Below, piece after piece: positions 7,021 to 32,019 of a stretch of 64,000 nt of DNA (position 1 is the first letter of the stretch; each line of letters starts with the position of its first letter). The position numbers and the translations under genes were made by a program. The notes beneath the pieces were generated by a model that searched no databases, was not told where the DNA came from, and worked only from the letters and a program-made list of their open reading frames with translations. The stretch spans positions 1,860,001-1,924,000 of the forward strand of contig NZ_LT578417.1 of the NCBI RefSeq assembly GCF_900088535.1. Reading direction: 5' to 3'. Origin of the DNA: Cyanobium sp. NIES-981 (lineage in GTDB: Bacteria; Cyanobacteriota; Cyanobacteriia; PCC-6307; Cyanobiaceae).

Positions 7021-7103
7021 AACGGCGCGCAGAACCCTGCGGCAGGCCGGCACTGACGAATCGGTGACGGCTCCATAGCCTGAAGACTCTCCCCCACGCG
7101 CGC

Positions 7104-8060: not shown

Positions 8061-8067
8061 GCGCCGC

Positions 8068-9606
8068 TCAGCCCTTGAGCTTCTCGGCCAGGATCCGGTT
8101 GGCGAGCTTGGGATCGGCCTTGCCGCCGGTCTGCTTCATCAGCTGACCCACGAAGAAGCCCTGCAGTTTGGTCTTGCCGCCGCGGAACGCCTCCACTTCA
8201 TCGGGATGGGCCGCCAGCAGCTCCTCCACGATGGCGGTGAGCGCCGCCGGGTCGCTGATCATGCCCAGCCCGCGCTCGGCCACGATCGCCCTGGCGGAGC
8301 CGCCCTGCTCCAGCAGTTCCGGCAGCAGCTCCTTGGCGATCTTGCCGCTGATCGTGCCGTTCTCGATCAGCTGGATCATCTCGGCCAGCTGCTCGGGCCG
8401 CAGGGGCAGATCGGCGTAGGAGAGCCGGTTGGCATTCACGTGGGCGGCGATGTCGCCGGTGATCCAGTTGGCGGTGGCCTTGGCGTCGGCGCCCGCCGCC
8501 ACCACCGCCTCGAAGTACTCGGCCATGGGGCGTTCATCGGTGAGCACCCGGGCGTCGTAGATGCTCAGGCCCAGCTGGTCGGCATAGCGGTGGCGCTTGG
8601 CGGCGGGCAGCTCCGGCAGTTCGGCGCGCCAGGCCTCCCGCTGCTCGGGCGTGACCTCGATCGGACCGAGATCGGGGTCGGGGAAATAGCGGTAGTCGCT
8701 GCTGCCTTCCTTGGAGCGCATGCTCTTGGTGAGCTGCTTGCTCTCATCCCAGAGGCGCGTTTCCTGCACCACGGGCTCCCCGGCCTCGTAGGCCTTGATC
8801 TGCCGCTGGATCTCGTAATCGCAGGCCTTCTGGATGGCCGAGAAGGAGTTCATGTTCTTGATCTCCACCTTCGTGCCGAAGGGGGCCTCGGGCCCGCGGC
8901 GCACGGAGATGTTCACATCGCAGCGCAGGGATCCCTCCTGCATGTTGCCGTCACTCACACCCAGATAGCGCATGATCCGCCGGATCTCGGAGGCGTACTC
9001 CGCCGCCTCCCGGCCGGTGCGCAGATCCGGCTTGCTCACGATCTCGGCCAGGGCCACGCCGGCGCGGTTGTAGTCCACCAGCGAGTGGGTGGAGCCGGCC
9101 AGGCGGTCGCTGCCGGCGTGCACGAGCTTGCCGGCGTCCTCCTCCATGTGCAGCCGCTCGATGCCGATGCGCTTGAGATAGGTGTCCTTGCCCTTCTCCG
9201 CCACCTCCACCTCGATCCAGCCGTCTTCGGCGATCGGTTCGTCGTACTGGGAGATCTGGTAGTTCTTCGGCAGGTCGGGATAGAAGTACTGCTTGCGGTC
9301 GAACTTGCTGTGCTCGGCGATGTGCAGATTGAGGGCCATGGCGGCCTTCACCGCATACTCCAGCACCTTCTGATTGAGCACCGGCAGGGTGCCGGGCAGG
9401 CCGCACACCACCGGGTCGATGTGGGTGTTGGGGTCGTCGCCGAACGCGGTGGAGGCACTGGTGAAGATCTTGCTGGCGGTGCCGAGCTGCACGTGGGTTT
9501 CCAGGCCGATCACCGCCTCCCAGGCCGGGGCAGCGGCTCCGGCAGCGGCGGCGGGGCGCTCCTGCGGGGCGGTCGGGGGGACTGCTGTGGGGGCGGTGCC
9601 TGCCAT
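8068..9606 (-). CDS. gatB: Aspartyl/glutamyl-tRNA amidotransferase subunit B
   Basis: GatB is the tRNA-binding and kinase subunit of GatCAB, which converts Glu-tRNA(Gln) and Asp-tRNA(Asn) to the amidated forms in the cytosol. The 512-residue protein has WEAVIGLETHVQL, VCGLPGTLPVLN, FDRKQYFYPDLPKNYQISQYD and the C-terminal YqeY-like tail with GKTKLQGFFVGQLMK. The N-terminal ~28 Ala/Pro-rich residues precede the conserved core and are variable in relatives. It is single in its operon here; gatA and gatC are not in the window. Confidence 0.97.
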   Translation of the reverse strand: MAGTAPTAVPPTAPQERPAAAAGAAAPAWEAVIGLETHVQLGTASKIFTSASTAFGDDPNTHIDPVVCGLPGTLPVLNQKVLEYAVKAAMALNLHIAEHSKFDRKQYFYPDLPKNYQISQYDEPIAEDGWIEVEVAEKGKDTYLKRIGIERLHMEEDAGKLVHAGSDRLAGSTHSLVDYNRAGVALAEIVSKPDLRTGREAAEYASEIRRIMRYLGVSDGNMQEGSLRCDVNISVRRGPEAPFGTKVEIKNMNSFSAIQKACDYEIQRQIKAYEAGEPVVQETRLWDESKQLTKSMRSKEGSSDYRYFPDPDLGPIEVTPEQREAWRAELPELPAAKRHRYADQLGLSIYDARVLTDERPMAEYFEAVVAAGADAKATANWITGDIAAHVNANRLSYADLPLRPEQLAEMIQLIENGTISGKIAKELLPELLEQGGSARAIVAERGLGMISDPAALTAIVEELLAAHPDEVEAFRGGKTKLQGFFVGQLMKQTGGKADPKLANRILAEKLKG

Positions 9607-10608: not shown

Positions 10609-11748
10609 GTGAGCGCCAGCGCGAATCCAGCGAGCGCCGACACCCTGATCCTGGGGGGAGGGCTGATGGGACTCTCCATTGCCCACCACCTCGCCCGCCG
10701 GGGGATGGGGGTGCGGGTGCTCAGCCGCCGCCGGCAGGAGGCCGCCGGCTTCGTGGCGGCCGGCATGCTGGCCCCCCACGCCGAAGGGCTCCGCGGGCCC
10801 CTGCTCAGCCTCGGCCAGCACTCCCTGGCGCGGATCCCCGCCTGGGTGGCCGCGATCGAGGCCGATTCCGGGCTCGGCTGCGGGCTGCGGCGCTGCGGCA
10901 TCGTGGTGCCCTTCGCCACGGCCGAGGCCAGCGACGCCTACCCCACCGCCCGCTGGGGGCAGCCGCTCGACCGCCAGGGCCTCGAGCGGGAGGTGCCGGG
11001 CATCGGCAAGTCCTGGCAGGCCGGCCTGCTCTTCCCCCAGGACGGCCAGATCGACAACCGCCGGCGCCTGATGCGGGCCCTGGAGCGGGCCTGCGTGGAG
11101 CGGGGGGTGCAGTTCGAGGAGGGGGCCGAGGTGCTGGAGCTGGGCGCCGACGACCACGGCACCCTGGCGGCGGTGCGCTGGCGCGGGGCCGACGGCCGCA
11201 CCCAGGAGCTGCCCTGCGATCGGGCCGTGCTGTGCGGCGGCGCCTGGAGCAGCCAGCTGCTGCCCCAGCTGCCGATCACCCCCGTGAAGGGGCAGATGCT
11301 GTCGCTGCAGGGACCCCGCCACGCTCTGGGGCGGGTGATCTTCGGGCCCGGAACGTACCTGGTGCCCCGCAAGGACGGCCTGGTGGTGGTGGGGGCCACC
11401 TCCGAACCGGAGGCCGGCTTCAGGCCCGGCCTCACGCCCGCTGGCCAGCGCCAGCTGGAGGAGGGCCTCACCGCCCTGCTGCCGGCGGCCGGCGGCTGGC
11501 CGTCGATGGAGCGCTGGTGGGGCTTCCGCCCCTGCACACCGGACGAGGGCCCGCTGCTGGGACCGGGCCCCATGGCCGGCCTCTGGCTGGCGGCGGGCCA
11601 CCACCGCAACGGGGTGCTGCTGGCCGCCATCACCGCTGAGCTGGTGGGGGATTCCCTGCTCGGGCAGCGCCTGCCAGCGGAGGATCAACACCTGCTGGAG
11701 GCGTTCCGCTGGGACCGTTTCAACCTGCCGGCAGGGCCCGGAGCGTGA
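10609..11748 (+). CDS. thiO: Glycine oxidase ThiO (FAD-dependent)
   Basis: ThiO oxidises glycine to iminoglycine for the thiazole moiety of thiamine. The 379-residue protein opens with an FAD-binding dinucleotide fold (LILGGGLMGLSIAHHLARRG, truncated description: GxGxxG-like at residues ~14-20), and has the family blocks AAGMLAPHAEG, PVKGQMLSL and WWGFRPCTPDEGPLLG, ending with the FAD-contacting HHRNGVLLA. The start is GTG. The 3' end overlaps the convergent cyclase gene by 29 bases. The gene interrupts the array of FecR/cyclase genes on the opposite strand. Confidence 0.92.
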   Translation: MSASANPASADTLILGGGLMGLSIAHHLARRGMGVRVLSRRRQEAAGFVAAGMLAPHAEGLRGPLLSLGQHSLARIPAWVAAIEADSGLGCGLRRCGIVVPFATAEASDAYPTARWGQPLDRQGLEREVPGIGKSWQAGLLFPQDGQIDNRRRLMRALERACVERGVQFEEGAEVLELGADDHGTLAAVRWRGADGRTQELPCDRAVLCGGAWSSQLLPQLPITPVKGQMLSLQGPRHALGRVIFGPGTYLVPRKDGLVVVGATSEPEAGFRPGLTPAGQRQLEEGLTALLPAAGGWPSMERWWGFRPCTPDEGPLLGPGPMAGLWLAAGHHRNGVLLAAITAELVGDSLLGQRLPAEDQHLLEAFRWDRFNLPAGPGA

Positions 11749-13612
11749 ACACCGGCAGCTCCCCCATGCCCTTCACCGGCAGCTCCCCCAGCGGCTGCAC
11801 CGGCAGCTCCCCGTCCACGAGCTCGGCGGTGGCGGCGTCGAAGAGGAGGGGCGTCCCTGCTGTGCGGGTGAGCCCCTCCATCCGGCTGGCCAGGTTGACC
11901 TTGTCGCCGATCACGGTGAACTCCATGCGGCGGGGGCTGCCGATCTGGCCCACGATCACCTCCCCGGAAGCCAGGCCCGTGCAGTTGTCGAGCGGCTCCA
12001 GGCCCTCGGCCTGCCAGGCGCTGTTCAGCCGGCTCAGGGCCCGCCGCATCTCGGCGGCACAGCGCACCGCGGCCACCGCCTCCGCCCGGGGCCCCCGGCC
12101 CAGCGGGGAGCCGAACACCGCCATCACCGCATCGCCGATGAACTTGTCCACGGTGCCGCCATGGGCGGTGATCACCTCCACCATCTCGCCGAGGTAGCGG
12201 TTGAGCTGGCGCACATGCAGCTCGATCTCACCACTGCCGCTGCGGCTGTTGGTGAGCTGGGTGAAGCCCTTGAGGTCGGTGAAGAGCACGGTGACGGGCA
12301 GGAGCCGGCCGCGCAGGATGCCCTCCGCCGCCGCCGGATCGGAGAGGATCTCCGCCACCACACTGGGGGCCACGTAGCGCTCGAAGGTGCGGCGCAGGCG
12401 CCGCCGCTCACGCTCCTCCGCCAGGTAGGCATCGCCGCCGTAGAGCGCCCCCAGCAGCACCAGCGCCGTGGCGGGCACCAGCAGGGGCACCCAGGTGTTG
12501 AGGCGGTCGAAGGCCAGCCAGGCGCCGGCCAGCTGCAGGGCCAGCACCAGCGCCACCAGCCCGAGCCGCCAGCCCAGGCCCGCGCGCAGCAGGGCCAGGA
12601 CGGCCACCAGCAGCACCGGCGTCAGGGCCAGCAGACCGCGGGGCAGCGGCTGGACCGGCCAGGTCTGCAGGCCATCACCCAGCAGCGAATTGGCGGTGGC
12701 GGTCGCCAGCATCTCCAGCCCGGAGAGGGTGCCGAAGGGCGTCACCGTGCCTGCCCCCCCCTGGGCGCCCACCGGCCCGATCAGCACCACCGCATCCCGG
12801 ATCAGGCTGCGCCTGGGGTGGTTGCGCCAGCGCTCCGGATCGAGCACTTCCCAGGCGGGCAGCCGCTCGAAGGAGGCCTCCGGGCCGTAGAAGTTCAGCT
12901 GGCGCCGGGCATCGGCCTGCCGGCTCACCCGGCCGGAACGCTCCAGAGCCACCTGGGAGAGGGCTGGCTGGGGCTTGGCGCCAGCCAGCGCCAGGATCCG
13001 CTCGCTGTAGGTCTGGGGGTGGCTGTGGGCCTCACCCTGGCCGCCCGGCAGGGTGTTGGTGATGCCAAGACCGCCGGGGCCGGCCGCCTCGCGCAGCAGA
13101 TCGGCGGGCGGGGCCAGGCTCAGGCCCGTGAAGCTGGTGTCGCGGATCTCCATGACCTCCGCGGCGAGGGCCACGCGGCCCCGCTGGCGACCGATGGCCG
13201 CCGCCAGTGCGGCATCGTCGGCCGGGCCCTGGCTGCTGGGGCCCTCGAAGACCACGTTGATGGCCACCGCCCCAGGACTGGCCTCCCCCAGCCGGTCGAG
13301 CAGATCGCCGTAGCGGGCCCGGGGCCAGGGGAGGGTGCTGAGCCCCTCGGCCCAGGCGGGAATCGGTTCCGCGTCCTGGGACTGGTCGGCGAACCAGGCC
13401 CCTTGCTGGAGGGTGGAATCGTCGATCGCCACCAGCACCACCGACTGGGGCACCGGCCGCCGGCCGCGCAGCCGCACCAGCTGATCCTCCAGGCCCCGTT
13501 CGAGAACGCGCAGCTGCTGCGGCGGCCGGGCCCCCAGCCCGCCCACTGTCAGGGCCAGACCACCGGAGGCCAGAGCCAGGGCCACGGTGCGGCGCAGGGA
13601 GGAAGCCATCAC
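11720..13612 (-). CDS. CHASE2-domain class III adenylate cyclase (cyclase 1)
   Basis: A 630-residue inner-membrane cyclase. After a signal-anchor (~8-26) comes an extracytoplasmic CHASE2 sensor (~30-315; blocks VVLVAIDDSTL and AVVLIGPVGA), three transmembrane helices (~325-392), then the cyclase domain (~425-590). Catalytic residues are all present: metal-binding Asp446 and Asp494, Lys490, Thr566 at the base-specifying position, transition-state Asn573 and Arg577. The Thr favours ATP, so cAMP is the expected product. The C-terminus carries three GELPV repeats. It is last of the minus-strand set FecR-cyclase-FecR-cyclase. The signal it senses is unknown. Confidence 0.92.
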   Translation of the reverse strand: MMASSLRRTVALALASGGLALTVGGLGARPPQQLRVLERGLEDQLVRLRGRRPVPQSVVLVAIDDSTLQQGAWFADQSQDAEPIPAWAEGLSTLPWPRARYGDLLDRLGEASPGAVAINVVFEGPSSQGPADDAALAAAIGRQRGRVALAAEVMEIRDTSFTGLSLAPPADLLREAAGPGGLGITNTLPGGQGEAHSHPQTYSERILALAGAKPQPALSQVALERSGRVSRQADARRQLNFYGPEASFERLPAWEVLDPERWRNHPRRSLIRDAVVLIGPVGAQGGAGTVTPFGTLSGLEMLATATANSLLGDGLQTWPVQPLPRGLLALTPVLLVAVLALLRAGLGWRLGLVALVLALQLAGAWLAFDRLNTWVPLLVPATALVLLGALYGGDAYLAEERERRRLRRTFERYVAPSVVAEILSDPAAAEGILRGRLLPVTVLFTDLKGFTQLTNSRSGSGEIELHVRQLNRYLGEMVEVITAHGGTVDKFIGDAVMAVFGSPLGRGPRAEAVAAVRCAAEMRRALSRLNSAWQAEGLEPLDNCTGLASGEVIVGQIGSPRRMEFTVIGDKVNLASRMEGLTRTAGTPLLFDAATAELVDGELPVQPLGELPVKGMGELPVFTLRALPAG

Positions 13613-13622
13613 AGAAGCCGAC

Positions 13623-14423
13623 TCAGAAGAACCGCGGGAAACTCAGGCCAGGGATCGGGAGCGAGGGGGTGACCGGCAGGCTCGGCAGGTTCACCCCGGG
13701 CACGTAGCGGCGCACGTAGCTCTCCAGCGAACCGAAAGCCGGCAGGGGGGTGCTGAAGCCCTCGAACAGTGACCCGCCGAAGATGGCGTTGTAATCGCCC
13801 GCATTGAGGCGCAGCAGGGTCAGCACCACACCGGCGGGCGACAGGGTGACGCGCTGGCCGGCCTCCACGCGCGTGCTCGGGGCAGGGGCACCGTCCTGCG
13901 GGGGTTCACCGTCCTGCACGGCTTCACCATCCCGCAGCGGTTCCACCTCCACCGCGCCCTCCAGCACGGAGAGTTCGGCCTGCCCGTCCTCCCTGACCTC
14001 GAGGATGTAGTTGGTGCCGCGCACGCTCATCCGCGCCGAGCGGGTGCAGCCGCTCTGGGGACCGGAGACGAGGATCTGGCCTTGACGGAGCAGGAAACAG
14101 CCGCTGCCCAGTCGGAGCTGGGAGAAGCGGTTCACCCGGCCGGCCGCCCCGGTGTCGAAGCGGATCTGCCCCCGGCTCTTGCGGGTGCTGATCTCCTGCG
14201 GCGCCGCGGCCCGCTGCTTCACCCTGGCCTCCCGGCCGTCGACGTAGAACTCCCGGCCATCGAGGATCTCCTGCACCGTGGCGGCCTCTCTCGCCGCAGC
14301 GGGGGTGGGCGGCAGCACGGCAAGCGGCACCAGCACCAGGGGCCACCAGACCCGCCGCAGGGGCTGCCGCAGGGGGGGCTGCCGCGGGGGGTGGGAGCGC
14401 ATCGGATCACGGAGAGCCTGCAT
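13623..14423 (-). CDS. Secreted FecR-domain protein (paralogue 2)
   Basis: The protein has an N-terminal basic region and hydrophobic signal (VWWPLVLVPLAVLPPTPAAA), a FecR-type domain and two conserved Cys (GCFLL...GCTRS). It is paralogous to the FecR protein at 9665-10498. I used the ATG at 14423, 10 bases after the cyclase-2 stop; ATG at 14402 is an alternative and gives a cleaner signal peptide. A duplicated DGE(A/P)xQDG block sits around residue 165. Ten bases separate its end from cyclase 1, so it is very likely co-transcribed with both cyclases and may deliver the signal read by CHASE2. Confidence 0.8.
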   Translation of the reverse strand: MQALRDPMRSHPPRQPPLRQPLRRVWWPLVLVPLAVLPPTPAAAREAATVQEILDGREFYVDGREARVKQRAAAPQEISTRKSRGQIRFDTGAAGRVNRFSQLRLGSGCFLLRQGQILVSGPQSGCTRSARMSVRGTNYILEVREDGQAELSVLEGAVEVEPLRDGEAVQDGEPPQDGAPAPSTRVEAGQRVTLSPAGVVLTLLRLNAGDYNAIFGGSLFEGFSTPLPAFGSLESYVRRYVPGVNLPSLPVTPSLPIPGLSFPRFF

Positions 14424-20090: not shown

Positions 20091-21584
20091 ATGCTGCCGA
20101 TGGCGATGTCCCAACTCGCTCTCAGCCTCGCGCTGGCAGCCGGACTGGTGGTGGGGCGGGCCTGGATGGTGCGCCACAGCCGCCTGGCTCCCCTGCCCCT
20201 GCTGCTTCCCCTCACCGCCCTGCTGGTGCATGTGGTGGCCACGCTCACGCCGGCGGCGCAGCTCGGGGCGGTGCCGGCCCGCTGGCTTGCCAGCCTGGAC
20301 CTGCTGTTCACGGGCTTCGCCCTGATCCGCCTGGGCACCTGGGGATGCCTGCAGCTGCCCGCCGGCCTGGGCTGGTGGCCCCAACCCCCGAAGATCCTGC
20401 GCGATCTGGCCATGCTGCTGCTGGCGGCGGCGTTCACGGTGCTGGTGCTTAGGGAGCGGGCCGGGGTGAATCTGGTGGGGCTGCTCACCACCTCCGCGGT
20501 GCTCACCGCCGTGGTGGGTCTGGCGGCCCAGGAAACCCTCAAGGACCTCTTCGCGGGCATCAGCCTGCAACTCGATGCCCCCTTCAGCGAGGGCGACTGG
20601 ATCGAGGTGAACGGCAGCGGCGGCATCGTCCAGACCGTGACTCTGATGAACACCTACCTGAAGACCGCCGACGGCAGCAGGCTGGTGGTGCCCAACGACA
20701 CCGTGGCCCAGGCGACGGCGCGCTGCTTCACGCCCCATGACCCGGTGGGGAACCGCTTCAGCATCGGCCTGGACTACGCCCTGCCCCCGGGGCAGGCCTG
20801 TGCGCTGCTGGAGCAGGTGATGGCCCAGTGCCCCGGTGTGCTCCAGCAGCCACCGCCCCGGGCGTGGGTGGGGGCCTATGCCGACAGTGCCATCACCTAC
20901 GAGCTGCTGGTGTGGCAGCGGGGCGCGGGCGAGCTGCAGCGCCTGGAGGTGCGCAGCACGGTGCTGCAGCACATCTGGTATGCCCTCAGCCGTGAAGGCC
21001 AGAGCATTCCCTACCCGGTGCGGGAGCTGCGCCCGAAGCGCCAGGGCCCCCCGGAGGATGATCCCGCCCTGATCGACGTGGAGGCCCGCGCCCGGCTGCT
21101 CTCCGGCAACGCCCTGTTCCAGGAGCTCGGGGCGGACCAGCTGGCCCAGCTGGCCCCCCTCACCCGCTGCCTGCGCTTCGGGCCCGGCGAAGCCGTGGTG
21201 CGGGAAGGGGATCCCAGCTCGGCGCTGTTTCAGATCGTGCGCGGCCGGGTCGCGGTGCTGAAGGCCGGGCCCCAGGGCGGGCAGACGGCCCTGGCCAGCC
21301 TGGGGGCTGGGGAGGTGTTCGGGGAGATGGGCCTGTGCACCGGTGGCCGCCGCACAGCCACCGTGCGTGCCGAGGAAGACACGGTGCTGCTCGAGGTGGA
21401 GCGGGACGACCTGATGCCGCTGGTGGAGGCGGAGCCGGAATTCCTGAACCATCTGGCCCGCCTGGTGAACCGCCGGCGCTGCGAGCTGGAGAAGGTGACG
21501 GCCGAGCAGGCCGCGGCCCACGAGCTGGGCCTCCTCCAGCGCATGCAGCAGCTGTTCGGGGCGGTGGGAATGGGGCGGACCTGA
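20091..21584 (+). CDS. MscS-type channel with C-terminal cyclic-nucleotide-binding domain
   Basis: The 497-residue inner-membrane protein has four to five N-terminal helices, the pore-lining MscS helix (LLTTSAVLTAVVGLAAQETLKD), the MscS beta domain (DWIEVNGSGGIV, VVPNDTVAQATARCF), and at ~350-470 a cNMP-binding domain. The phosphate-binding cassette reads FGEMGL...RRTATV, with the Glu and Arg that hold the nucleotide. Such proteins belong to the bCNG family, in which cyclic-nucleotide binding gates or modulates the channel. A nearby ATG at 20100 is an alternative start. With three cyclases close by it is a candidate cAMP effector. Confidence 0.92.
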   Translation: MLPMAMSQLALSLALAAGLVVGRAWMVRHSRLAPLPLLLPLTALLVHVVATLTPAAQLGAVPARWLASLDLLFTGFALIRLGTWGCLQLPAGLGWWPQPPKILRDLAMLLLAAAFTVLVLRERAGVNLVGLLTTSAVLTAVVGLAAQETLKDLFAGISLQLDAPFSEGDWIEVNGSGGIVQTVTLMNTYLKTADGSRLVVPNDTVAQATARCFTPHDPVGNRFSIGLDYALPPGQACALLEQVMAQCPGVLQQPPPRAWVGAYADSAITYELLVWQRGAGELQRLEVRSTVLQHIWYALSREGQSIPYPVRELRPKRQGPPEDDPALIDVEARARLLSGNALFQELGADQLAQLAPLTRCLRFGPGEAVVREGDPSSALFQIVRGRVAVLKAGPQGGQTALASLGAGEVFGEMGLCTGGRRTATVRAEEDTVLLEVERDDLMPLVEAEPEFLNHLARLVNRRRCELEKVTAEQAAAHELGLLQRMQQLFGAVGMGRT

Positions 21585-21593
21585 GGGACCCGC

Positions 21594-22322
21594 TCAACGG
21601 GCGCAGAACCACGCCTGCAGGCCCAGGCGATCCACCGGCGCCGGCAGTTCCGCCGGATCGAAGGCGGGCGCAGCCTCCGCCGCCATGGCCCTGAGCGTCA
21701 CCGGCCGGCCTCCGCCCTCCACCTGCACCTGGATCGGGCGCACGTCCTTGAGACCGATCACGCCGGCCAGGTCCCGGGCCTGCTGCAGGGCATCCTGGTA
21801 GGCCGCGCGCAACAGCTGCTGGCGGCTGGCCCGGTCCTCCTCGGGCCTGGCCTCCGTGCTCACCGGCGACAGCCGCACTCCCGGCAGACCGCCCACCCGC
21901 CGCACCAGGGGCTGCAGCTGCCGCAGCGCCAGCTTGCCGCTGATCTGCAGCGTGGCCACCCACACCGGCGGCCGCCGGCCGCTGCGGCTGCGCTCCCAGG
22001 TGTTCGGCGAGCTCACCTCCAGCTCCTCCACCCCCAGGGACTTCAGCTCCTGGCGCACGGCGCCCAGCCGCACCTGGAGGCTCTCCAGGGCCTGGTCAGC
22101 GGTGTCAGCCTCAGCTTCCACCCCAAGGGAGAAGCCGAAGCGGCTGGCCTCGCGCCGCAGCTCGGCCGAGCCGCGGGCTTCGAGCAGGGTGCCGTTGCAC
22201 TGCAGCTGCACCTGGGCCTGGGCCATGGCCGGCCGCGGCGCGGCCTGAAGCAGCAGGACCATGGGGGAAAGCATGGCCGCGGCGCGCCACAGGCTCCTGG
22301 ACCGCTGAGAAACGGACGTCAC
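21594..22322 (-). CDS. Secreted SIMPL-domain (DUF541) protein
   Basis: A 242-residue protein starting at GTG with a signal peptide (LWRAAAMLSPMVLLLQAAPRPAMA) and a SIMPL domain: GTLLEARGSAELRREAS, TADQALESLQVRL, LQISGKLALRQLQPLV and AYQDALQQARDLAGVIGL. SIMPL proteins are periplasmic or outer-membrane associated; some bind partners at the envelope, but the role here is unknown. An internal ATG at 22274 is possible but would shorten the signal. It is divergent from cyclase 3 and its end faces the MscS channel gene, 9 bases apart. Confidence 0.82.
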   Translation of the reverse strand: MTSVSQRSRSLWRAAAMLSPMVLLLQAAPRPAMAQAQVQLQCNGTLLEARGSAELRREASRFGFSLGVEAEADTADQALESLQVRLGAVRQELKSLGVEELEVSSPNTWERSRSGRRPPVWVATLQISGKLALRQLQPLVRRVGGLPGVRLSPVSTEARPEEDRASRQQLLRAAYQDALQQARDLAGVIGLKDVRPIQVQVEGGGRPVTLRAMAAEAAPAFDPAELPAPVDRLGLQAWFCAR

Positions 22323-22349
22323 GGCTGGCTGAGCGGAGGTGCATGCAGC

Positions 22350-24398
22350 TTGCTCCCGGCCGGCCTGGCCGGGCAAGTCGTCCAGGTGAGCTGCCCTGCA
22401 GGCTCTCCAAATCGCATCAGAATCAGCAGCGCCCGCCATCAGAGCCTCAGACCAGGGCATCCCTTGAACCCTGAAGCCAGCCACCCCCCGCCGCGGGATG
22501 CCTGCGATCGCCCGTCCAAGGCCGGACGTCTGCTCCTGCGAATCGGTCCGTCCCTGGGGGCAGCGGTGGTGCTGGCCGGGATCGAGCTGTCCGGCATCGC
22601 CCAAAGGCTCGACCTGGCGTTCTATGACCTGATCACCAACATGCGCCCGGCGCCATCGGCGCGGGATCTGCCGATCACGATCATCGGGATCGGGGAGGAC
22701 GACATCCGCCGTCATGGCTGGCCGCTCGATGACGGACTGCTCTGCCGGGCTCTTGACCGGCTGAGTGAGGCCGGCGCAAGCGCCATCGGCTTCGACATCT
22801 ACCGCGATCAAGGGGTGGGGCCGGACCAGGCCTGCCTGCGGCAGCGCTTCGCCCGCAATCCGCGCTTGGTCTCGGTGTTCAATGTGGCCAACGGCATCCC
22901 GGCCATTCCAGGCACGCCACCGGCTCGGAGGGGGTACAACGATCTTCCCCTCGACCCGGACGGCACGTTGCGGCGTGACCTGGTGCACGTGACGGCCCAG
23001 GATGAAGCCACAGTGGCCCTGCCGCTGCGGCTGGTGGAGGTGGCCCAGGGCAACCAGCAGCTGCGCGACAGGATCGAGGCTGGCCGCCTCGACGCTGCGT
23101 GGCTGCAGGCCGACTCAGGGGGCTATCACCGTGAGGCTGACGCGGGTCTCGGGCTGCAGCAGATGCTGATCTTCAGGGAGCCGGGCAGCTTCCACACCGC
23201 GTCCCTCTCGCTCCTGCTGGCCGGAGGCGTACCGCCGAGCGCGATCAACGGAAGGATCGTGATCCTCGGCAGCACCGCCCCGTCGCTCAAGGATCTGTTC
23301 ATGGTGCCGATGAGCCACTTCCGCGGCGGCGCCGTGCCGCTCACCTTGCCGGGGGCTGAGGTGCATGCGCTGCGGGTCGCCGCTCTGATGGACCTGCAGC
23401 GGGGCGAGCGGTGGACGGGGTGGCTGATGCCGGGTTGGGGCAATCTGCTGCTCACCCTGTTGGCGGCCGGTGGCGGACTCGCGCTGGGGGAACGCATTGG
23501 CAGCCTGCGCCGGAGTGTGTTCGTCACCGCTGGCATGGCGGCACTCCTGGGCGGCAGCCTGGCGGTGCTGCTGCTGCAGCACATCTGGATCGGCACCAGC
23601 ATGCCGCTGCTGGCCCTGCTGATGCTCGCCGCAGCTGCCTGGTTGCGGCGGGGCGCTGCCAGCCAGCTGCATTCCCGGCAGATTCAACGACTGCTCGGGC
23701 AGGCCACATCCCCAGCGGTGGCCCAGCTGCTCTGGGACAAGCGCGACCAGCTGCTGCGGGAGGGAATCTTCGAGGGGCGACAGCTGCCTGCCACGGTGCT
23801 GTTCACCGACCTGGCCAATTTCAGCACCGTTTCCCAGCACCTCACACCGGCTGAGCTCACGGCTTGGATCAACCGCTGTCTGTCGGTCTGCATCCCTGCC
23901 GTGATCCAGCATGACGGCATGGTGAACAAGTTCACCGGAGACGGGATGATGGCGGTGTTCGGGGTGCCGGTGGGCAAGGATCCGGCCAGCGATGCGCGGG
24001 GCGCGGTGCAGGCATCCCTCGCCATCCGTCAGGGCCTCGACGAACTCAATGCCCGCCAGAGCCGGGAAGGACAGCCGGGCTACCGGCTGCGCATCGGTAT
24101 TCACTCCGGTGAGGTGCTGGCCGGATCGGTCGGCAGCAGCGAACGGCTGGAATACGGGGTGATGGGCGACACCGTGAACTGCGGCTCAAGGCTGGAGAGC
24201 CTCGAGAAGCATCGCCATCAGGGTGTCACCAGGATCCTGATTTCCTCGGTGACCCGCAATCTGCTGGATGACGAGCTCGTGTCCGGGCTGGACTGGCTGG
24301 CGTGGGGCTCCCGGCAAGTCAAAGGTCGCGACGAACCCCTGGAGATCTTCGAGCTTCAGGAAGGACAGCGCACGGGCAGCAGCTCGGGCCAGTCCTGA
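22350..24398 (+). CDS. CHASE2-domain class III nucleotide cyclase (cyclase 3)
   Basis: A membrane cyclase with CHASE2 region (ITIIGIGEDDIRRHGWPLDD; IVILGSTAPSLKD), three transmembrane helices and a C-terminal cyclase domain. Metal ligands Asp487 and Asp531, Lys527, Asn610 and Arg614 are present. The base-specifying position, Thr in cyclases 1 and 2, is Gly603 (EYGVMGD), so substrate choice (ATP or GTP) is uncertain. The start is unclear: TTG at 22350 gives 682 residues, TTG at 22464 gives 644, and no ATG occurs before the CHASE2 region. The 3' end overlaps the convergent secreted-protein gene by 43 bases. Confidence 0.9.
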   Translation: MLPAGLAGQVVQVSCPAGSPNRIRISSARHQSLRPGHPLNPEASHPPPRDACDRPSKAGRLLLRIGPSLGAAVVLAGIELSGIAQRLDLAFYDLITNMRPAPSARDLPITIIGIGEDDIRRHGWPLDDGLLCRALDRLSEAGASAIGFDIYRDQGVGPDQACLRQRFARNPRLVSVFNVANGIPAIPGTPPARRGYNDLPLDPDGTLRRDLVHVTAQDEATVALPLRLVEVAQGNQQLRDRIEAGRLDAAWLQADSGGYHREADAGLGLQQMLIFREPGSFHTASLSLLLAGGVPPSAINGRIVILGSTAPSLKDLFMVPMSHFRGGAVPLTLPGAEVHALRVAALMDLQRGERWTGWLMPGWGNLLLTLLAAGGGLALGERIGSLRRSVFVTAGMAALLGGSLAVLLLQHIWIGTSMPLLALLMLAAAAWLRRGAASQLHSRQIQRLLGQATSPAVAQLLWDKRDQLLREGIFEGRQLPATVLFTDLANFSTVSQHLTPAELTAWINRCLSVCIPAVIQHDGMVNKFTGDGMMAVFGVPVGKDPASDARGAVQASLAIRQGLDELNARQSREGQPGYRLRIGIHSGEVLAGSVGSSERLEYGVMGDTVNCGSRLESLEKHRHQGVTRILISSVTRNLLDDELVSGLDWLAWGSRQVKGRDEPLEIFELQEGQRTGSSSGQS

Positions 24399-24982
24399 CC
24401 AAGCAGATCGCCGAGCTCAAAAGTGCTGATCAGCTCTGCGCGGCTGACCATGCCCCCGCAGCGCCCGCGCAACTGCTGAAGGCGTAGCTGGAAGCGAGCG
24501 TCATCCGGGGTTGTGTCCTGCACCAGAAGGCTGAGGGCCGGCGGCGACGACGTCGAGACCACCTGCAGCGGATCCCCCGAGGCACCAGCGGTGAGGCCGT
24601 CGTCACAGCGGTAGCTCGATTCCCACAGCGTGGCGTCGGGGAAACCCGGCCCCTGCACCAGCACCAGGGCCGCCCCGCCCGATAGCAGCAACCGTTCGGT
24701 GGCGGGGGCCGTACCGGTCTGGGGGCGAAAGCGCAGCACCAGAGGACGCGGCTGGCTGGACGGACCCTCCAGCAGGCCGAGCAGGGAGGGATCGCCCGGG
24801 GCGAAGACGCTGGATCGCGGTACGAGGTGCACGAGCATCCGTGCGCTGCACTCCCCACGGGTTCCCCCGCCCACCAGCCGGCCGGGGAAGGTCGCCCGTG
24901 GATTGGCGGACACCTGGATCTGGCTGGCCAGTGCCACGGTGATCGTGCAGCAGAGAGCGAGGGGGCGCCAGGGTTGGTTCAT
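24356..24982 (-). CDS. Small secreted protein, DUF928-like
   Basis: A 208-residue protein with a signal peptide (PWRPLALCCTITVALASQIQVSA) and a GGGTRGEC block near residue 38, which recalls the GxRGxC start of cyanobacterial DUF928 proteins; the match elsewhere is weak. It begins 6 bases after the CHAT exoprotein stop and is surely in its operon. DUF928 proteins often neighbour CHAT/CHASE2/two-partner-secretion genes in cyanobacteria. No catalytic residues are recognisable; three to four Cys could form disulfides. Confidence 0.65.
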   Translation of the reverse strand: MNQPWRPLALCCTITVALASQIQVSANPRATFPGRLVGGGTRGECSARMLVHLVPRSSVFAPGDPSLLGLLEGPSSQPRPLVLRFRPQTGTAPATERLLLSGGAALVLVQGPGFPDATLWESSYRCDDGLTAGASGDPLQVVSTSSPPALSLLVQDTTPDDARFQLRLQQLRGRCGGMVSRAELISTFELGDLLGQDWPELLPVRCPS

Positions 24983-24988
24983 GGCGTT

Positions 24989-27900
24989 TCACCAGGGAGT
25001 GCCGAGCAGGGTGATGCCGGCCCAGAAGTAAGGATGGCCCAGACCCGAGCGGACGCGCTGCTGCTCCGCGGTGGTGAGATCGATCAGGAGGGGCATGCCG
25101 TCAGGAGCCACCACCCGGTTGCCGTCCAGGCGGATCCTGCCCGCGATCAGATCCCGGCGGGTGGCCTGCAGAGCGTCGGCTTTCGGGAACCCTTCATCGA
25201 GGTAGCGGTAGAGCTGCAGGAAAAACGCGGAAGTAGCGACATCATCCACATACCAGAGCGTGCCGATGGCGCTCCTGGAGCCTGCCTGCAGGGCGAGGCC
25301 CGCAAAGCCGAGTTCGCTCTCCGCGTCGCCCACGGCGGTGCGACAGGCACTGAGGCTGAACAGCTCCAGGGGATCTCCCTCGCGCTGATCCCGCATGCGG
25401 GCGAATTCAGCCAGGGAGATCGCACCGGCTCCGGTGTGGACCCTGGCCCGCCGCGGCCCCCCGGGCAGGAACTCCGCATGGGTGGCCAGATGCACCCGGT
25501 CGTAGCGCGGATCGGCAGCCTGCTCCAGCAGCACCATCGGCGTGAAGCGTTGGTTGAGGAAGGCGTCGGCAGACCGCTGAGCCGCCAGACCATCGATCTC
25601 CTGAAGCACCAGGGGCAGCGGGGCAAGACCTTCAAAGCTGGAGGCCCCGGCCGCCAGAAGCCGGGAGAGCCCGTCTTTGGGGGGGGTGAGACAGGTGAGC
25701 CGCAGGGAGGGTGTGAGGGTCAGGGCGTAGCGCTCCCCGAGGAACTGGCTGCCGTCGTGGAGTGCGGCGAAGGGCACCGCCTGCAGGCCACGGTCCGTGG
25801 CGATCAGGAGGCTGGTCACACCCAGCTCCGCCAGTTCCGCCTCGACTGGGGCGATCAGCGCAGCATGGAGCTGACGCGCTGGGGTCTGGGGATCTGAGGG
25901 GTCGATGAAGGCACGCCCCGCGTTCTGCTGGTAGAAGCTCCCCAGGAGCTGGCGGAAGCGATCCAGGGAGAGCTGAACCCGGCGGGGCGTCGGCTCGCCC
26001 TCGGCGGTGACCAGGGTGAGGTCGAGGAATGCCCGTTGCGGCTGGGAGGGATCGGCAGACGCGGTGCGGTCTTCGGTGAAGGTGAGGCTGAGGATGCCCG
26101 GCTGGTAGTGCTTGAAGCGTCCGCCCGCCTGGGTGCGAATCGCCTGCCTGGCAGCTGAGAGCCGGCTTTGCAGGTCCTTGGTGGCCAGGCTCTGGGGTGG
26201 ACAGGCTGGCCGCTCGAGATCCGGCAGGAGCGCATTGAGATCCTCGAGTCGCCTGTCTTCCACCTGCGTGAGCAGGGCCAGGGAGGGATCCGCGCCGAGG
26301 CTCTCGGTCCCGAGGATCAGCGGCACCCCAGCGGCGTCCGCGTCTTCGCCCAGTGGGAGTCGCAGCGCGAGAGCGTTGGCTTGAAGGTTGTCTAACAATT
26401 CAAACGGGCCGGCAAACGGGCCGGCACCGCCAGGAGTCGGCTCATTCGAGACCGCTGCAGGCTCGGACGACCAGGGGGGAATGACGGCCTGGGTGAACTC
26501 ACGCAGCAGGGTGAACGGGACCCCCGGACCAGGCTCTGGAGTCGGCCCGGGGACCGGCGGTGGGGTGGGATCTGGAGATGGCGACGGGCCTGGCGTCGGG
26601 CCTGGGGCCGGACCCGGGCCAGCATCGGGCCCTGGGTTTGGAGTTGGCGTTGGGGTCGGGGTTGGCGTTGGGGTCGGGTTCGGGTTCGGGTTCGGGGTCG
26701 GGGTCGGGGTCGGGATCGGAGTTGGGGTTGTGTTGGGGTTGGGGGTTGGGGTTGGAGCGGGCGGCTGCGGGGGTTCCGGGGTGGGGGCCAGGCCGTTGAA
26801 GGCAAACTGGATCGAACCTCGCTGGAGTTGGCCAAGGATTCCGTCTTCCAGTCCAGCCCTGGCATTGAGGATGTCGATGTCGACGCCTGCAAGCTGGGCC
26901 GAGTCGGCATTGACCAGCACGAACGGATTGGTCCCGGCCGGAGGGGGATTCAGGGGATCAGCCAGACGGATCTGGAAGAGGGGACCCTGCCCCAGAAATG
27001 TGGCCGTGGAAGTGGCACCGAAAACGATCTGATCCGAAACTCCAAGGCCATTGATCGAACCAAGATCAAACTCCAGAACAGCGCCATCCTGAACCTGCCA
27101 GTTCAGGTCTGTGAATGTGAGGCTGCCAATGGAGCGAACCCCGCCAGCACTACCGGGAGAGATGACGCTTCCAGCCTGCTGATCCAGCACCCCCATCGTG
27201 GAACCGTCGAAGGAACCTTGGATCGTTCCACTGCCGGAGAGGCGAGAACCTTGCTGCAGCAGGACTTGAGATGCCTGGCAGCGGCCTTCGAAGCAATTGT
27301 AGAAATCCAGCTCAGCCCCCTGGGATACCTCAATGGAGCCGGCGCTGAGATGCTGAGGGCCATTGAGAGCCAACCGACCCTGTTCCACGAGCAGGGATCC
27401 CTGGTTAATGACCCTTCCATTCAGATTGATCTGTCCAGGCGTCTGAGTGGTGACAAAAGCTCCTGGGGACACCTGAATGGATGCAGGGGATGTGATCGCG
27501 CTGAAATCGGAACCACGCAGTTCTATCGTGTCAGCCAGAACAACATCGCCAGCCGCAAAAACCTCAAAATCTCCCTGTGCTGCATGGAGCCCTGACACAG
27601 CGAAGGGGACGCCGAAAAAGCCTGGATTGTCAACGCTTCCTATCACCAGGGGAGTGGCGGAATCAGACGAGATATTGATCGAGCCCTGGAGAGATTCGGA
27701 AGCAATTTTACCCGCAGAAAAGATCTGCAGATCTTGATCGCCAAAGCTGCTCGCAAGCACCTCTCCTGCGCCAGCCTGAATGGCGCCGGGAGAGTTGTCA
27801 CACACCAGACAGCCTGGCGCCGTTGTTGCAATCGTTCCTGCGGAACTCCGCAGGGACACCCGCCCCCCTCCGGAATTCAGACTTTCCTGCGGATCAGGGC

Positions 27901-28756
27901 TTCCGGATCCGGACAACAGAAAGATATCCCCATTGGCCAGAACACTGACATCCCCTCCATTGGTGTCTAGCCGACCCTGAAGCAGAAAGAAACTGTCGGT
28001 TTTTGCCAGGAAATCCGCCCCTCTGGTGAACACATCACCGGAAACCGAAATACTGCCAGACTGCGAGTCCAGCAGTACAGTTTCAGGCAACAAGCCTGGA
28101 TCTACGGAAAGCAGGTTGCCAAAGATTGAGATGTCGCCATTGAAGCCCCCGGGATTTGTCAAGAAGCCCTGGGGGGCACCAGTGAGCTGAGCGACCTGGC
28201 CAGCCGTTGTCTGGCCATCAAAAGCCAGGCCGCCCGGGAACCTCAGAGTGGTGGCCGTACTCAGCTGGAGGTTGAGCACATTGCTGAACGAACCGTTGCC
28301 GCTGACGGAGATGCCTCCCGGAGATAGCCAGAAGAGGCTCGCCGCATTCTGGAGTTCCACAGGAATGTTGATAAAGGTGCCATTGGCTCCTGTTACCGAC
28401 ACAAAAACGGAACCGAATGCGCCGTTCAGAAACCTTACGCCAGCAAGCGATGTGCTTGCTCGCGTATCAAAATCAGAAAATCGATGGAACAGATGATTGG
28501 CACCGGCAGCCGTGCCCCCCGTGACCGTGCAGACGCCGCTCGTGCAGCTGCCGGTGCCGTTGTTGACGAGCGTTCCCAGGGATGAAGGGGATGAATCGGG
28601 CGTAATCTGAGCCAGGGTGGGTGGTGCGGCCCATATCCCGGCCACCAGGACAGGCCCGAGAATCTTCAACCGAGGGGCCAGGCTGACAGGCCAACGGTGA
28701 GGCCTTGCCTTGATCCATGACCAGCATTCAGTGAGACGCAGAGCACACGTCAGCAT
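24989..28756 (-). CDS. Two-partner-secretion exoprotein with C-terminal CHAT protease domain
   Basis: A 1255-residue multidomain protein. An unusually long signal region (~1-50, ending [14 protein letters not shown]) is followed by a filamentous-haemagglutinin-type TPS domain (~55-280; [31 protein letters not shown]), a beta-helical stem to ~660, a Pro/Thr/Asn/Gly linker (~665-755), and after ~800 a CHAT domain. CHAT is a caspase-like Cys protease fold; the dyad is visible as His1093 (HLATHAEF) and Cys1138 ([10 protein letters not shown]). The divergent TpsB transporter should export it across the outer membrane. Target proteins and activation are unknown. The 5' half is less GC-rich than neighbouring genes. 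Confidence 0.9.
26575..26770. repeat. Hexanucleotide-rich low-complexity tract coding the Pro-Thr/Pro-Asn linker
   Basis: Units such as GGGTCG, GGGTTC and GGGTTG repeat nearly without interruption, encoding PTPTPNPNP-type sequence on the minus strand. The plus strand carries many closely spaced runs of three or more G, so it may form G-quadruplex structures and vary in length by slippage. Confidence 0.9.
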
Positions 28757-28989
28757 CTGAAACTCCCTGGCGCAACCCGAGGGCTGCTATCACGCTGAAC
28801 AAACTATAGGTTGATTCTGGCTGAAGTTCATGGGCCAGTCCATGGAGACAGACAGGTATCCACAACCGGTAACACCACAGCGACCAGCCACATCTCAGAT
28901 CAGCGGTATCACGCTTGCGGGGGCTGCCACTGTGAGCTCTTCATCCAAGGCCAGTTCACGAAGCAGGCCAGCTCTGGCTTGCATGTCTG

Positions 28990-30735
28990 TTGAACCATCC
29001 CATCATCTTCGCGGGATTGCTTCCAGTCTCGGGTATGTCAATGCTGCTGCTCGCACAGCTGGTGGCACCTCCGCTGCAACAGGGTCCTGTGCGGCTGCCG
29101 GAGAACCGGCCATCCCTGGAACGGCGGGCTCCTGCCCGTGGGGCTGAGCAGCCCCCCCTGGAGGTGATGCCGGACGACAACGCAAAACCACCTCTGGACG
29201 GGGAACCGGCGCCGGAAGCCCCGGTCCCGGCCGTGCCCAGCGGTGGTCTGCCAGCCATCGAGGGACTCACCCTCTACGACAACGACAGACTGCGCGACAT
29301 CCTTGCGGACTGCAGCCAGATCAGTGCTCCAGCCGAGCGGCTGAATGCCTGCGCCGCCGCACTCACCGCCCAGTTCGTGGCCGATGGCTACGTGAACAGC
29401 CGTGTGTTCGTGGAGCTCACCCCCGCCCCGGGTCGCCTTCTGGTGGTGGAGGGCCGCCTGGTGGAACTGCGGGTGAACGGCAACGACGACCGGCTGAACC
29501 GCCGCGTCGCCCGCCTGATGCGATCCCTGCAGGGCACGCTGCTCCACCTGCCGAGCCTCGAGCGCCAGCTGCAGTTGCTGCGCCGGGTTCCTGGAGTGAA
29601 ACAGGTGCGGGGCAACCTCTCCCGACTCGGCAGCGACCCCACCCAGGCCACCCTCACCATCACGCTCGAAGGCGGCGCGCCCGCCTGGCAAGGCGACCTT
29701 TCCCTCCGCAACGACGGCAACAACGGTTCCGGTGATGCTCGCGCCGTCGCCAGCTTCCTCAAGCCCGGCGCGTTGGTGGCTGGCGACGTGCTGCTGCTCT
29801 ACGGGGAGCTCAACAGTGACGACGAGCCAGAGCTGGGGGCAGCGATCACCTCACTCACCTACACCCTGCCCCTCGGTGACGCCTTCAATCTCACCACGGC
29901 CTTCGGTGCGAGCCGCCGGGACCTGATCGAGCTGGACCCACCCGCCGATGGTCTCTCGACCACGCAGCTCCAGGGTCTCGGCCAGCTCGAGTGGGTGTTC
30001 TCCGAGAGCCTCACCCAGCGTTGGAACGCCTTCCTGGGGATCAGCGGCAGCTCCAGCCGCACCCGCCTCGATGGCGCGTCGTTGCCCTCCACAGTGCCGG
30101 AGATCATCCGCAAGCCGCGCAGCGGCTATCTGCGGCTGGGCGTCGGTGGCAGTGGCCAGGGCGTGGGGGTGGGCTGGGGTGGCTCGGCCTACCTGCTGGC
30201 CGGGCTCTCAGGCATGAGCCCCGCCGAACAGCGCCGTGAGTGGCGGGAGGCCGGCATCGACCCCTCCCAGGCCACGGCCATCGGCGGCCTGATCTCGGCT
30301 GGGTGGGCCTTCGCACCTGGCTGGCAGCTCAACGGCCGTCTGGCGGGCCAGTGGGCCTTCAACCCCCTTCTGCCCTCCATGCAGTTCAGCCTGGGGTCGG
30401 ATGTGGGCCTGCGCGGTCTGCCCGCCCAGCTGATCAGCGGCGACAGCGGCTGGCTGGCCGTCACCGAGGCGTCCTGGACCTTCTGGCAGAACCGCAGCCA
30501 CGCCCTGCAGCTGGTGCCCTTCATCGGTGCCGGCGGCGTGCGCAGCGAGCTGAGCGACTTCAACTTCAGCGACACCCTCGGCTCCGGCGGGCTGCTGCTG
30601 CGTTGGCTGGCCGGCGACAACTGGGCCTTCGAGCTGGGTTGGGCCCACCAGTTCTCCACAGGGACCCTCGAGGGTCCCTGGAATGACTGGGTGCTCGACG
30701 ATGGCCTCTACGCCAAGGCGCAGTTCCGGTTCTGA
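28990..30735 (+). CDS. TpsB/ShlB/FhaC-type outer-membrane secretion protein
   Basis: This is the transporter partner of the CHAT exoprotein, transcribed divergently from it. Residues ~90-240 hold POTRA-type periplasmic domains (YVNSRVFVEL, RLLVVEGRLVEL), followed by a 16-strand-type beta-barrel ending in a C-terminal Phe (AKAQFRF), as expected for BamA-dependent insertion. The conserved VRGY-like lid motif reads LRGLP (~residue 475). A Pro-rich stretch (~25-90) precedes the POTRAs. The first start is TTG at 28990; ATG at 29035 gives a shorter signal peptide and may be the real one. The ~230-280 base gap to the exoprotein presumably holds both promoters. Confidence 0.9.
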   Translation: MNHPIIFAGLLPVSGMSMLLLAQLVAPPLQQGPVRLPENRPSLERRAPARGAEQPPLEVMPDDNAKPPLDGEPAPEAPVPAVPSGGLPAIEGLTLYDNDRLRDILADCSQISAPAERLNACAAALTAQFVADGYVNSRVFVELTPAPGRLLVVEGRLVELRVNGNDDRLNRRVARLMRSLQGTLLHLPSLERQLQLLRRVPGVKQVRGNLSRLGSDPTQATLTITLEGGAPAWQGDLSLRNDGNNGSGDARAVASFLKPGALVAGDVLLLYGELNSDDEPELGAAITSLTYTLPLGDAFNLTTAFGASRRDLIELDPPADGLSTTQLQGLGQLEWVFSESLTQRWNAFLGISGSSSRTRLDGASLPSTVPEIIRKPRSGYLRLGVGGSGQGVGVGWGGSAYLLAGLSGMSPAEQRREWREAGIDPSQATAIGGLISAGWAFAPGWQLNGRLAGQWAFNPLLPSMQFSLGSDVGLRGLPAQLISGDSGWLAVTEASWTFWQNRSHALQLVPFIGAGGVRSELSDFNFSDTLGSGGLLLRWLAGDNWAFELGWAHQFSTGTLEGPWNDWVLDDGLYAKAQFRF

Positions 30736-30768
30736 TTGGCCTGCCGGCTCAGCCCCCCTGAATCAGAA
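30730..30768. repeat. Inverted repeat at convergent gene ends
   Basis: TTCTGATT (30730-30737) faces AATCAGAA (30761-30768) across 23 bases. Both arms include the final Phe codon and stop of the flanking genes, so it may be partly coincidental, but it could act as a weak bidirectional terminator. Confidence 0.3.
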
Positions 30769-32019
30769 CAGCCCCTTGAACAGGTTGAAGGTGCCGCCGC
30801 CCCCAGCCGGGGCGCGTTCCTCCTGCCGGGCCGGCATCTCGAGAGGCATCCCTTCCATCAGGGGCTGGATCAGCAGGGACTGGCGCTCCACCTGCACCTG
30901 CCAGCCCGGCGAGACCCCTGGCTCCTGCAGACGCTGGGGCACGGCGGGAGCCACGAACGTGAGCACGCCGGCCTGCATGGCCTGCATCGCCTGGGCACTC
31001 ACGGCGCAGCTGGTCTGGGAGAGCGGCAACAGGGCCGGGGCCCCGGCCTGGCTCTTGCCCTTCTCCTGGCCAGCGGCACCGGAGCTGGGTTGCAGGCCAC
31101 CGGAGAGCGTGCTCAGCCCAACGAAGGGGGTGTCGCCCCACGGACGGCTGCTGGAGGTCCAGATCACCAGATCGCCCTCCTGGCGTCCGGCGCCGGCCAC
31201 CAGGGCCAGGTACCCCTCGGCGCCGGCCACCGGCTGCCAGCGCAGCAGGGAGGCCCCGCCGGCCGCAGTGATCGCCAGCTCCACCGGCGCCAGGAAATCG
31301 TGGCGGCTGTCCAGGGAGAAATTGAGCGTGGGGGTGGTGCCGCCACTCACCGTGTGGGCACCCACGAGGGAGGCACCGGCCGGCACGGCTCCGCTGCCCC
31401 TGGTTTCCGCGTTGGGCCAGCGGCCCAGCACGGTCGCCCCGGAGCGCAGCCCATCCGCCTGGGCGCGCAGGCCGCCCATCGACGCCAGGCGGCGGGCCAG
31501 GGCCTGCTGGTCGGGGAGCAGGCGCTCCAGGCTGACCACCTGGGGCTGCTGGCCATCGGCCTGGTCAGCGCAGCCGTGGAAGAGCAGCAGACGCCCCTGC
31601 GGGCGCTCGGGCGGACTCCCGGGCGTGGGGTTGCCCGGCTCGGCAGCGGCCGCCAAGGGGGGCACGAGCGGCAGCACCGGCCCCAGGCGCAGGCCCTCGG
31701 GAACGCGGTGCTCGGCCCGCAGAGCGCCTGGAGCCGGGCCGGGCGCCTCGAGGCTGAGCTCCAGGGTGCGGGCCGAGGAGGGAGGCGCGCCGCCCATCAG
31801 CAGGCGCATCATGCCGCCGGCCGAAAGATCGCCAGCCGCCAGCGCCCCCAGGCCGGAGAGGGTGGTGGCCTGGATGGTGTAGGTCACGGGGGGCTCGGCT
31901 GCCGCCGCAGCCGGAGGCGAGGCAGCGGAGAGGAGGGGAGGCGCGACCAGGAGCAGGGTGACCGCCAGGGAACGGCAGTGCCCTGACGGCCACCAGCGAT
32001 GGGGTGCGGGAGCCGGCAT
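30763..32019 (-). CDS. Secreted hypothetical protein next to TpsB
   Basis: A 418-residue protein with a signal region (LAVTLLLVAPPLLSAASPPAAAAA). The remaining sequence is Gly/Ala/Pro-rich with blocks such as GRLLLFHGCADQ, LNFSLDSRHDFLAPVELAI and WQPVAGAEGYLALVAGAG; the last two resemble a fibronectin-like or beta-sandwich passenger. Only two or three Cys occur. I do not recognise a named family. It converges on tpsB, so its link to secretion is by location only. Confidence 0.75.
   Translation of the reverse strand: MPAPAPHRWWPSGHCRSLAVTLLLVAPPLLSAASPPAAAAAEPPVTYTIQATTLSGLGALAAGDLSAGGMMRLLMGGAPPSSARTLELSLEAPGPAPGALRAEHRVPEGLRLGPVLPLVPPLAAAAEPGNPTPGSPPERPQGRLLLFHGCADQADGQQPQVVSLERLLPDQQALARRLASMGGLRAQADGLRSGATVLGRWPNAETRGSGAVPAGASLVGAHTVSGGTTPTLNFSLDSRHDFLAPVELAITAAGGASLLRWQPVAGAEGYLALVAGAGRQEGDLVIWTSSSRPWGDTPFVGLSTLSGGLQPSSGAAGQEKGKSQAGAPALLPLSQTSCAVSAQAMQAMQAGVLTFVAPAVPQRLQEPGVSPGWQVQVERQSLLIQPLMEGMPLEMPARQEERAPAGGGGTFNLFKGLF

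Follow-up and report, generated by a model that had tools for sequence, protein, structure and literature searches.

CHAT proteases are familiar chiefly as cytoplasmic enzymes of defence, cell division and chromosome segregation. The presence of a CHAT domain at the C-terminus of a TPS exoprotein in Cyanobium sp. NIES-981 raises the question of where such a domain acts and on what. The gene lies in a 64,000-nucleotide stretch of the chromosome, hereafter the window, to which all positions refer. The account that we favor as a whole, at roughly even odds (about 0.5), is a TPS system with a periplasmic, TpsA-linked CHAT protease. The original prediction had been drawn around the exoprotein and TpsB genes (24989-30735); this pair stands, but the functional unit is larger, spanning approximately 20091-30735, with the following features:

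20091-21584, plus strand: MscS-type channel with a cNMP-binding domain, 497 aa (cNMP_binding 76 bits, MS_channel domains)
22350-24398, plus strand: CHASE2 sensor with a class III nucleotide cyclase, 682 aa (CHASE2 162 bits, Guanylate_cyc 69 bits)
24356-24982, minus strand: DUF928-like small exported protein, 208 aa, with a hydrophobic N-terminal leader, 6 bases downstream of the exoprotein gene
24989-28756, minus strand: TpsA-CHAT exoprotein, 1255 aa from ATG (open reading frame and domain searches)
within the exoprotein, approximately aa 1-49: leader
within the exoprotein, approximately aa 50-250: divergent TPS domain
within the exoprotein, between the TPS domain and the Pro-rich stretch: repetitive stem
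within the exoprotein, approximately aa 656-746: Pro-rich stretch
26117-26284, minus strand, approximately aa 825-880: junction motif (proposed docking), whose counterpart in split loci is the TpsA C-terminus
25001-25885, minus strand, aa 958-1252: CHAT caspase-like domain with His1093/Cys1138 (PF12770, 174.4 bits against a cut-off of 24)
28990-30735, plus strand: TpsB outer-membrane transporter, 581 aa from TTG (ShlB 43.8 bits; POTRA_2 22.6 bits, slightly below the cut-off of 24)

The CHAT domain is the only match to its profile in the whole 3.02-Mb genome, which forms one contig. The dyad that had been described as intact is present at the predicted positions, with His1093 in the motif HLATHA and Cys1138 in SACRT, and both residues are conserved without exception across the aligned sequences that span them (50/50, window included), with the surrounding motifs also retained. 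In the C-terminal region, 60 columns reach 95% identity or more across 51 sequences. To follow the suggestion that this part be compared structurally with known CHAT proteases, residues 800-1255 were modeled with AlphaFold from 11 sequences (mean pLDDT 67, pTM 0.61) and the model was compared with the PDB using Foldseek. The best match was Csx29/TPR-CHAT (E 6.5e-11), and further matches comprised the DdvA anti-sigma factor, separases, SAVED-CHAT and, weakly, caspases. Since Csx29, separases and caspases are all matched, the model does not lack the caspase-like sheet, and the predicted caspase-like fold was recovered. We consider the domain probably an active protease.

The TPS domain at the other end of the protein is less directly recognizable. 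The haemagglutinin-type secretion domain of the original prediction was upheld through relatives but not by a direct match, as the Pfam TPS model (PF05860) did not detect it in the window exoprotein even at E<=10. Two orthologues, L005 and L083, match this model at 23 and 29 bits (E 6e-5 and 1e-6; Pfam cut-off 33.5 bits), and the window N-terminus aligns with these and other relatives at 40-49% identity (E 5e-22 to 3e-31). Distant proteins of other families carry both domains in one polypeptide at clearer scores (TPS 127-151 bits, CHAT 235-247 bits). Because its N-terminus aligns with TPS-matching relatives, a divergent TPS domain is accepted for the window exoprotein on this alignment evidence, and the fusion of a TPS exoprotein to CHAT is thereby confirmed. 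The beta-helix of the original prediction stays putative for the stem: an AlphaFold model of residues 46-345, built from two sequences, reached a pLDDT of 38. The exoprotein had no match in NCBIfam, and a search of a viral structure library gave a single weak match. The leader of the exoprotein comprises a hydrophobic segment at residues 32-43 and an A-x-A site, as judged by a crude hydrophobicity test and inspection. The Pro-rich linker is indeed present, but it is specific to the window exoprotein and not a feature of the family.

The likely exporter is encoded divergently, as predicted at 230-280 bases, and is the only ShlB match in the genome. The gap to the exoprotein gene is 233 bases from the TTG start of TpsB, or 278-284 bases from an ATG at 29035 or 29041, either of which is the more likely start.

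A 372-aa CHAT segment was used as the query against 201 Cyanobiaceae genomes and matched 63 of them, approximately 40 closely; 49 related stretches were fetched and 52 loci gene-mapped. Relatives with names include Cyanobium sp. Morenito 9A2 and Synechococcus sp. UW140, which places the host among the picocyanobacteria of the Cyanobium group. The usual gene order is cNMP-gated MscS channel, CHASE2-cyclase, DUF928-like gene, TpsA-CHAT and TpsB, and among the 52 loci TpsB occurs in at least 35, the DUF928-like gene in at least 28, the CHASE2-cyclase in at least 26 and the channel in at least 17; these counts are lower bounds because of contig ends and fetch limits. When the CHASE2 part and TpsB were in turn searched against the 201 genomes, CHAT and cyclase were found together in 40, discordantly in 3 and 2, and were both absent from 156 (Fisher 4e-36, kinship ignored), while the corresponding counts for CHAT and TpsB were 40, 3 and 3, and 155 (Fisher 6e-35, kinship ignored). 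Presence is patchy inside genera: of 10 genomes sampled from the window's genus, 2 have the full set of three genes and the rest lack TpsB and the cyclase. As judged from these patterns, CHAT, TpsB and the CHASE2-class III cyclase are present or absent jointly, mostly in one cluster that also contains the DUF928-like gene and often the channel gene.

The remaining members of the cluster are characterized to different degrees. The cNMP-gated MscS channel is a candidate reader of the cyclase product. Among the members tested, the DUF928-like protein matched no Pfam family better than chance, and its profile aligns with that of DUF928-type proteins only over a short P-RR-GGGTRG-C motif (E 1.2e-7, 94%, 21 columns). 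It may be related to DUF928 or convergent; the evidence favors relatedness, because a true DUF928 protein (204 bits) adjoins a TPS-CHAT gene in the distant locus L163. The DUF928-like gene and the CHASE2-cyclase gene are convergent and overlap by 43 bases (24356-24398), and loci L044-L048 have similar convergent overlaps of approximately 47 bases. A SIMPL (DUF541) protein is encoded between channel and cyclase (21597-22298, minus strand) and recurs in 9 of the 52 loci. A search for CRP-like sites returned 13 against 12.4 expected, none above chance.

The most informative variation concerns the attachment of CHAT itself. Within Cyanobiaceae, 32 fused sequences stand against 15 separate CHAT genes of approximately 425-450 codons, and in 10 of the 15 split loci the CHAT gene begins within the last codons of the tpsA gene before it, with a four-base overlap (ATGA). 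On the CHAT tree the fused or split state changes at least four times, the starred branches forcing four, and the sister of the window's fused CHAT is L043, which is split. All 15 separate CHATs have an N-terminal hydrophobic leader of their own, as judged by inspection and a crude hydrophobicity test in which one cytosolic control, AlaS, also scored 1.93, and no TPS domain was found in any of them. At E<=1.4e-6, a profile of the 32 fused junctions recovered 14 of the 15 TpsA C-termini from split loci, whereas the best of the shuffled sequences reached 1.9e-3. Thus, in the split state TpsA retains the junction motif as its C-terminus and CHAT carries a leader.

Since CHAT occurs separately with a Sec-type leader in 15 homologous loci, it very probably acts beyond the inner membrane. 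This much of the predicted protease outside the cell holds, but action at the cell surface is less well supported, the split CHATs being without TPS. Because TpsA keeps the junction motif while the split CHAT gains a leader, CHAT is placed in the envelope and we propose that the motif holds it there by docking. The periplasm is the more economical site compared with the surface, as the separate CHATs without TPS have no known route through TpsB and the motif is common to both forms.

The architecture is not confined to Cyanobiaceae. A search of 244 genomes of the phylum with a CHAT profile matched 79, often with several copies and in long frames. A TPS domain, detected with a profile built here, was present in 20 of 33 long-frame loci outside Cyanobiaceae, distributed over 14 families, and four such proteins submitted to Pfam all had both TPS and CHAT (4/4). 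The suggested search for homologous TPS-CHAT fusions therefore found them in at least 14 other cyanobacterial families, and these profile matches show such fusions to be frequent among cyanobacteria; the same 20 of 33 loci led us to abandon the idea of a rare, isolated fusion. In L163, TPS-CHAT, ShlB, the true DUF928 protein and a CHASE2-GGDEF-EAL protein are adjacent, the last standing where the CHASE2-cyclase is found in Cyanobiaceae. Among 148 neighboring open reading frames of the non-Cyanobiaceae loci, POTRA_2 was matched 8 times, DUF928 3 times and CHASE2 twice, which indicates that outside Cyanobiaceae the transporter is often encoded elsewhere and the full cluster is exceptional. CHAT matches on plasmids (Nostoc, Pseudanabaena, Azospirillum and others) share approximately 25-37% identity, and five such loci that were inspected had neither TpsB nor a TPS domain. 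In one plasmid locus, L095 (Kovacikia minuta; 5985-8429, minus strand, and 11680-13749), a protein that on visual inspection resembles CHAT joined to CHASE2 is encoded close to a DUF928-like gene and to a leader-bearing CHAT whose frame is shifted; this is perhaps a TPS-free version of the TPS-CHAT/CHASE2/DUF928 association.

From the domains, dyad, fold class, gene linkage, co-occurrence, leadered split forms and shared junction motif, we infer proteolytic activity, a periplasmic site, a substrate and a direction of signaling as follows. TpsA-CHAT would be exported by Sec, and TpsB would thread the TPS domain and stem across the outer membrane, while the junction motif and CHAT would most likely stay in, or act from, the periplasm. 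There, CHAT would act on its own exoprotein, processing it for retention, maturation or release, or on some envelope substrate close by. The role of the CHASE2-cyclase would be to sense something in the envelope and report it inside as a cyclic nucleotide, which the neighboring cNMP-gated channel may read in part, and the DUF928-like protein would be an exported accessory, possibly an inhibitor or a substrate. We further offer, as a tentative proposal, that a second-messenger-linked periplasmic caspase-like protease controls the retention or release of its own TPS surface protein, which would amount to a caspase-fold parallel to LapG-LapD-CdrA, repeatedly fused and split and widespread in cyanobacteria.

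Other readings of the same loci place CHAT elsewhere or give it another role. If TpsB exported the whole protein, CHAT would be a surface or extracellular protease acting on other cells, phage, predators or dissolved protein. Its C-terminal position in the 32 fused Cyanobiaceae proteins and its occurrence on a TPS protein in the 20 long-frame loci of other families are consistent with such export, for which LepA of Pseudomonas aeruginosa provides the precedent of a TPS-secreted protease; a separate CHAT could also reach the surface by another route, and a fused one could be fully exported. The split orthologues argue against it, as they have a Sec-type leader and lack TPS but still retain the dyad and a tpsA partner, and so does the signaling receptor, whose place in the cluster points to a function within the envelope of the cell itself. 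We therefore hold this reading to be possible, though rather unlikely. Less likely again is a CHAT domain without proteolytic activity, serving as an envelope sensor or scaffold that would bind TpsA and relay a signal via the CHASE2-cyclase: the Foldseek match at rank 6 to DdvA (8rot), a solved transmembrane anti-sigma factor, points this way, against which stands the invariance of His and Cys and of the motifs around them.

The enzymatic domain at the C-terminus of TpsA, whose gene is followed immediately by a small conserved one, also recalls contact-type effectors of the CDI kind, in which CHAT would be a toxic tip aimed at neighbors and the DUF928-like product its immunity protein. CdiA is characterized by a variable C-terminal toxin with an immunity gene; here, in contrast to swapped CdiA-CT toxins, the C-terminus is conserved, the product of the downstream gene carries its own leader, and the split CHATs are not attached to TpsA, all of which makes this reading highly improbable. 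A defence system was rejected as well. PADLOC returned weak BovA matches to the CHAT part and Pycsar cyclase matches to the class III cyclase domain (best 1.9e-26), and the cluster is not read in this way because its cyclase is CHASE2-linked and it contains a secretion pair.

The favored periplasmic system shares features with several known ones without coinciding with any. As in TPS systems of type Vb (FhaB/FhaC, CdrA type), a large Sec-exported TpsA with an N-terminal TPS domain is encoded next to an ShlB-family TpsB; unlike them, it has a C-terminal CHAT, or a CHAT gene overlapping tpsA, and the CHASE2-cyclase and DUF928-like partners. With CHAT and TPR-CHAT proteases (Csx29 of Craspase, separase, HetF) it shares the fold and the His/Cys dyad, whereas its predicted location is beyond the inner membrane and its partners are an exoprotein and TpsB, in place of CRISPR, cohesin or the divisome. 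In Pseudomonas, c-di-GMP controls the cleavage of the TpsA adhesin CdrA, whose periplasmic tail is the target of the periplasmic protease LapG (PMC5422565). The likeness lies in the way of working, namely a periplasmic protease, a periplasmic tail of TpsA and second-messenger control, and we claim no homology: in place of LapG and LapD, the protease is a CHAT domain, fused to or encoded with TpsA, and the receptor is a CHASE2-cyclase (CHASE2-GGDEF-EAL in L163). LepA is a TPS-secreted protease as well (PMC5422565), which that review reports neither as a CHAT protein nor as a member of a signaling cluster; the word CHAT does not occur in it. A literature search covering mostly open papers, and thus weak evidence, found no paper describing TPS-CHAT or a CHAT domain with hemagglutinin or CHASE2, although we expect domain databases to show the TPS-CHAT architecture. 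If the favored account is true, caspase-type proteolysis moves into the bacterial envelope, built into the secretion of a surface protein, and provides a candidate switch for surface display in a very abundant photosynthetic group. The system is directly testable, since split orthologues exist and it is present in single copy in the 3-Mb genome of an organism that is culturable and non-pathogenic.

Several observations lie beside this argument. Beyond TpsB, a 418-aa protein with a leader-like N-terminus is encoded at 30763-32019 (minus strand), with no Pfam match above cut-off and no match in related loci. The CHAT reading frame is broken in the orthologous loci L084, L087 and L088. Giant relatives with a terminal CHAT are encoded at L055:5901-16922 (3673 aa) and L049:4245-16874 (4209 aa), and the stem of the former contains 11 DUF5650 repeats together with YDG repeats.
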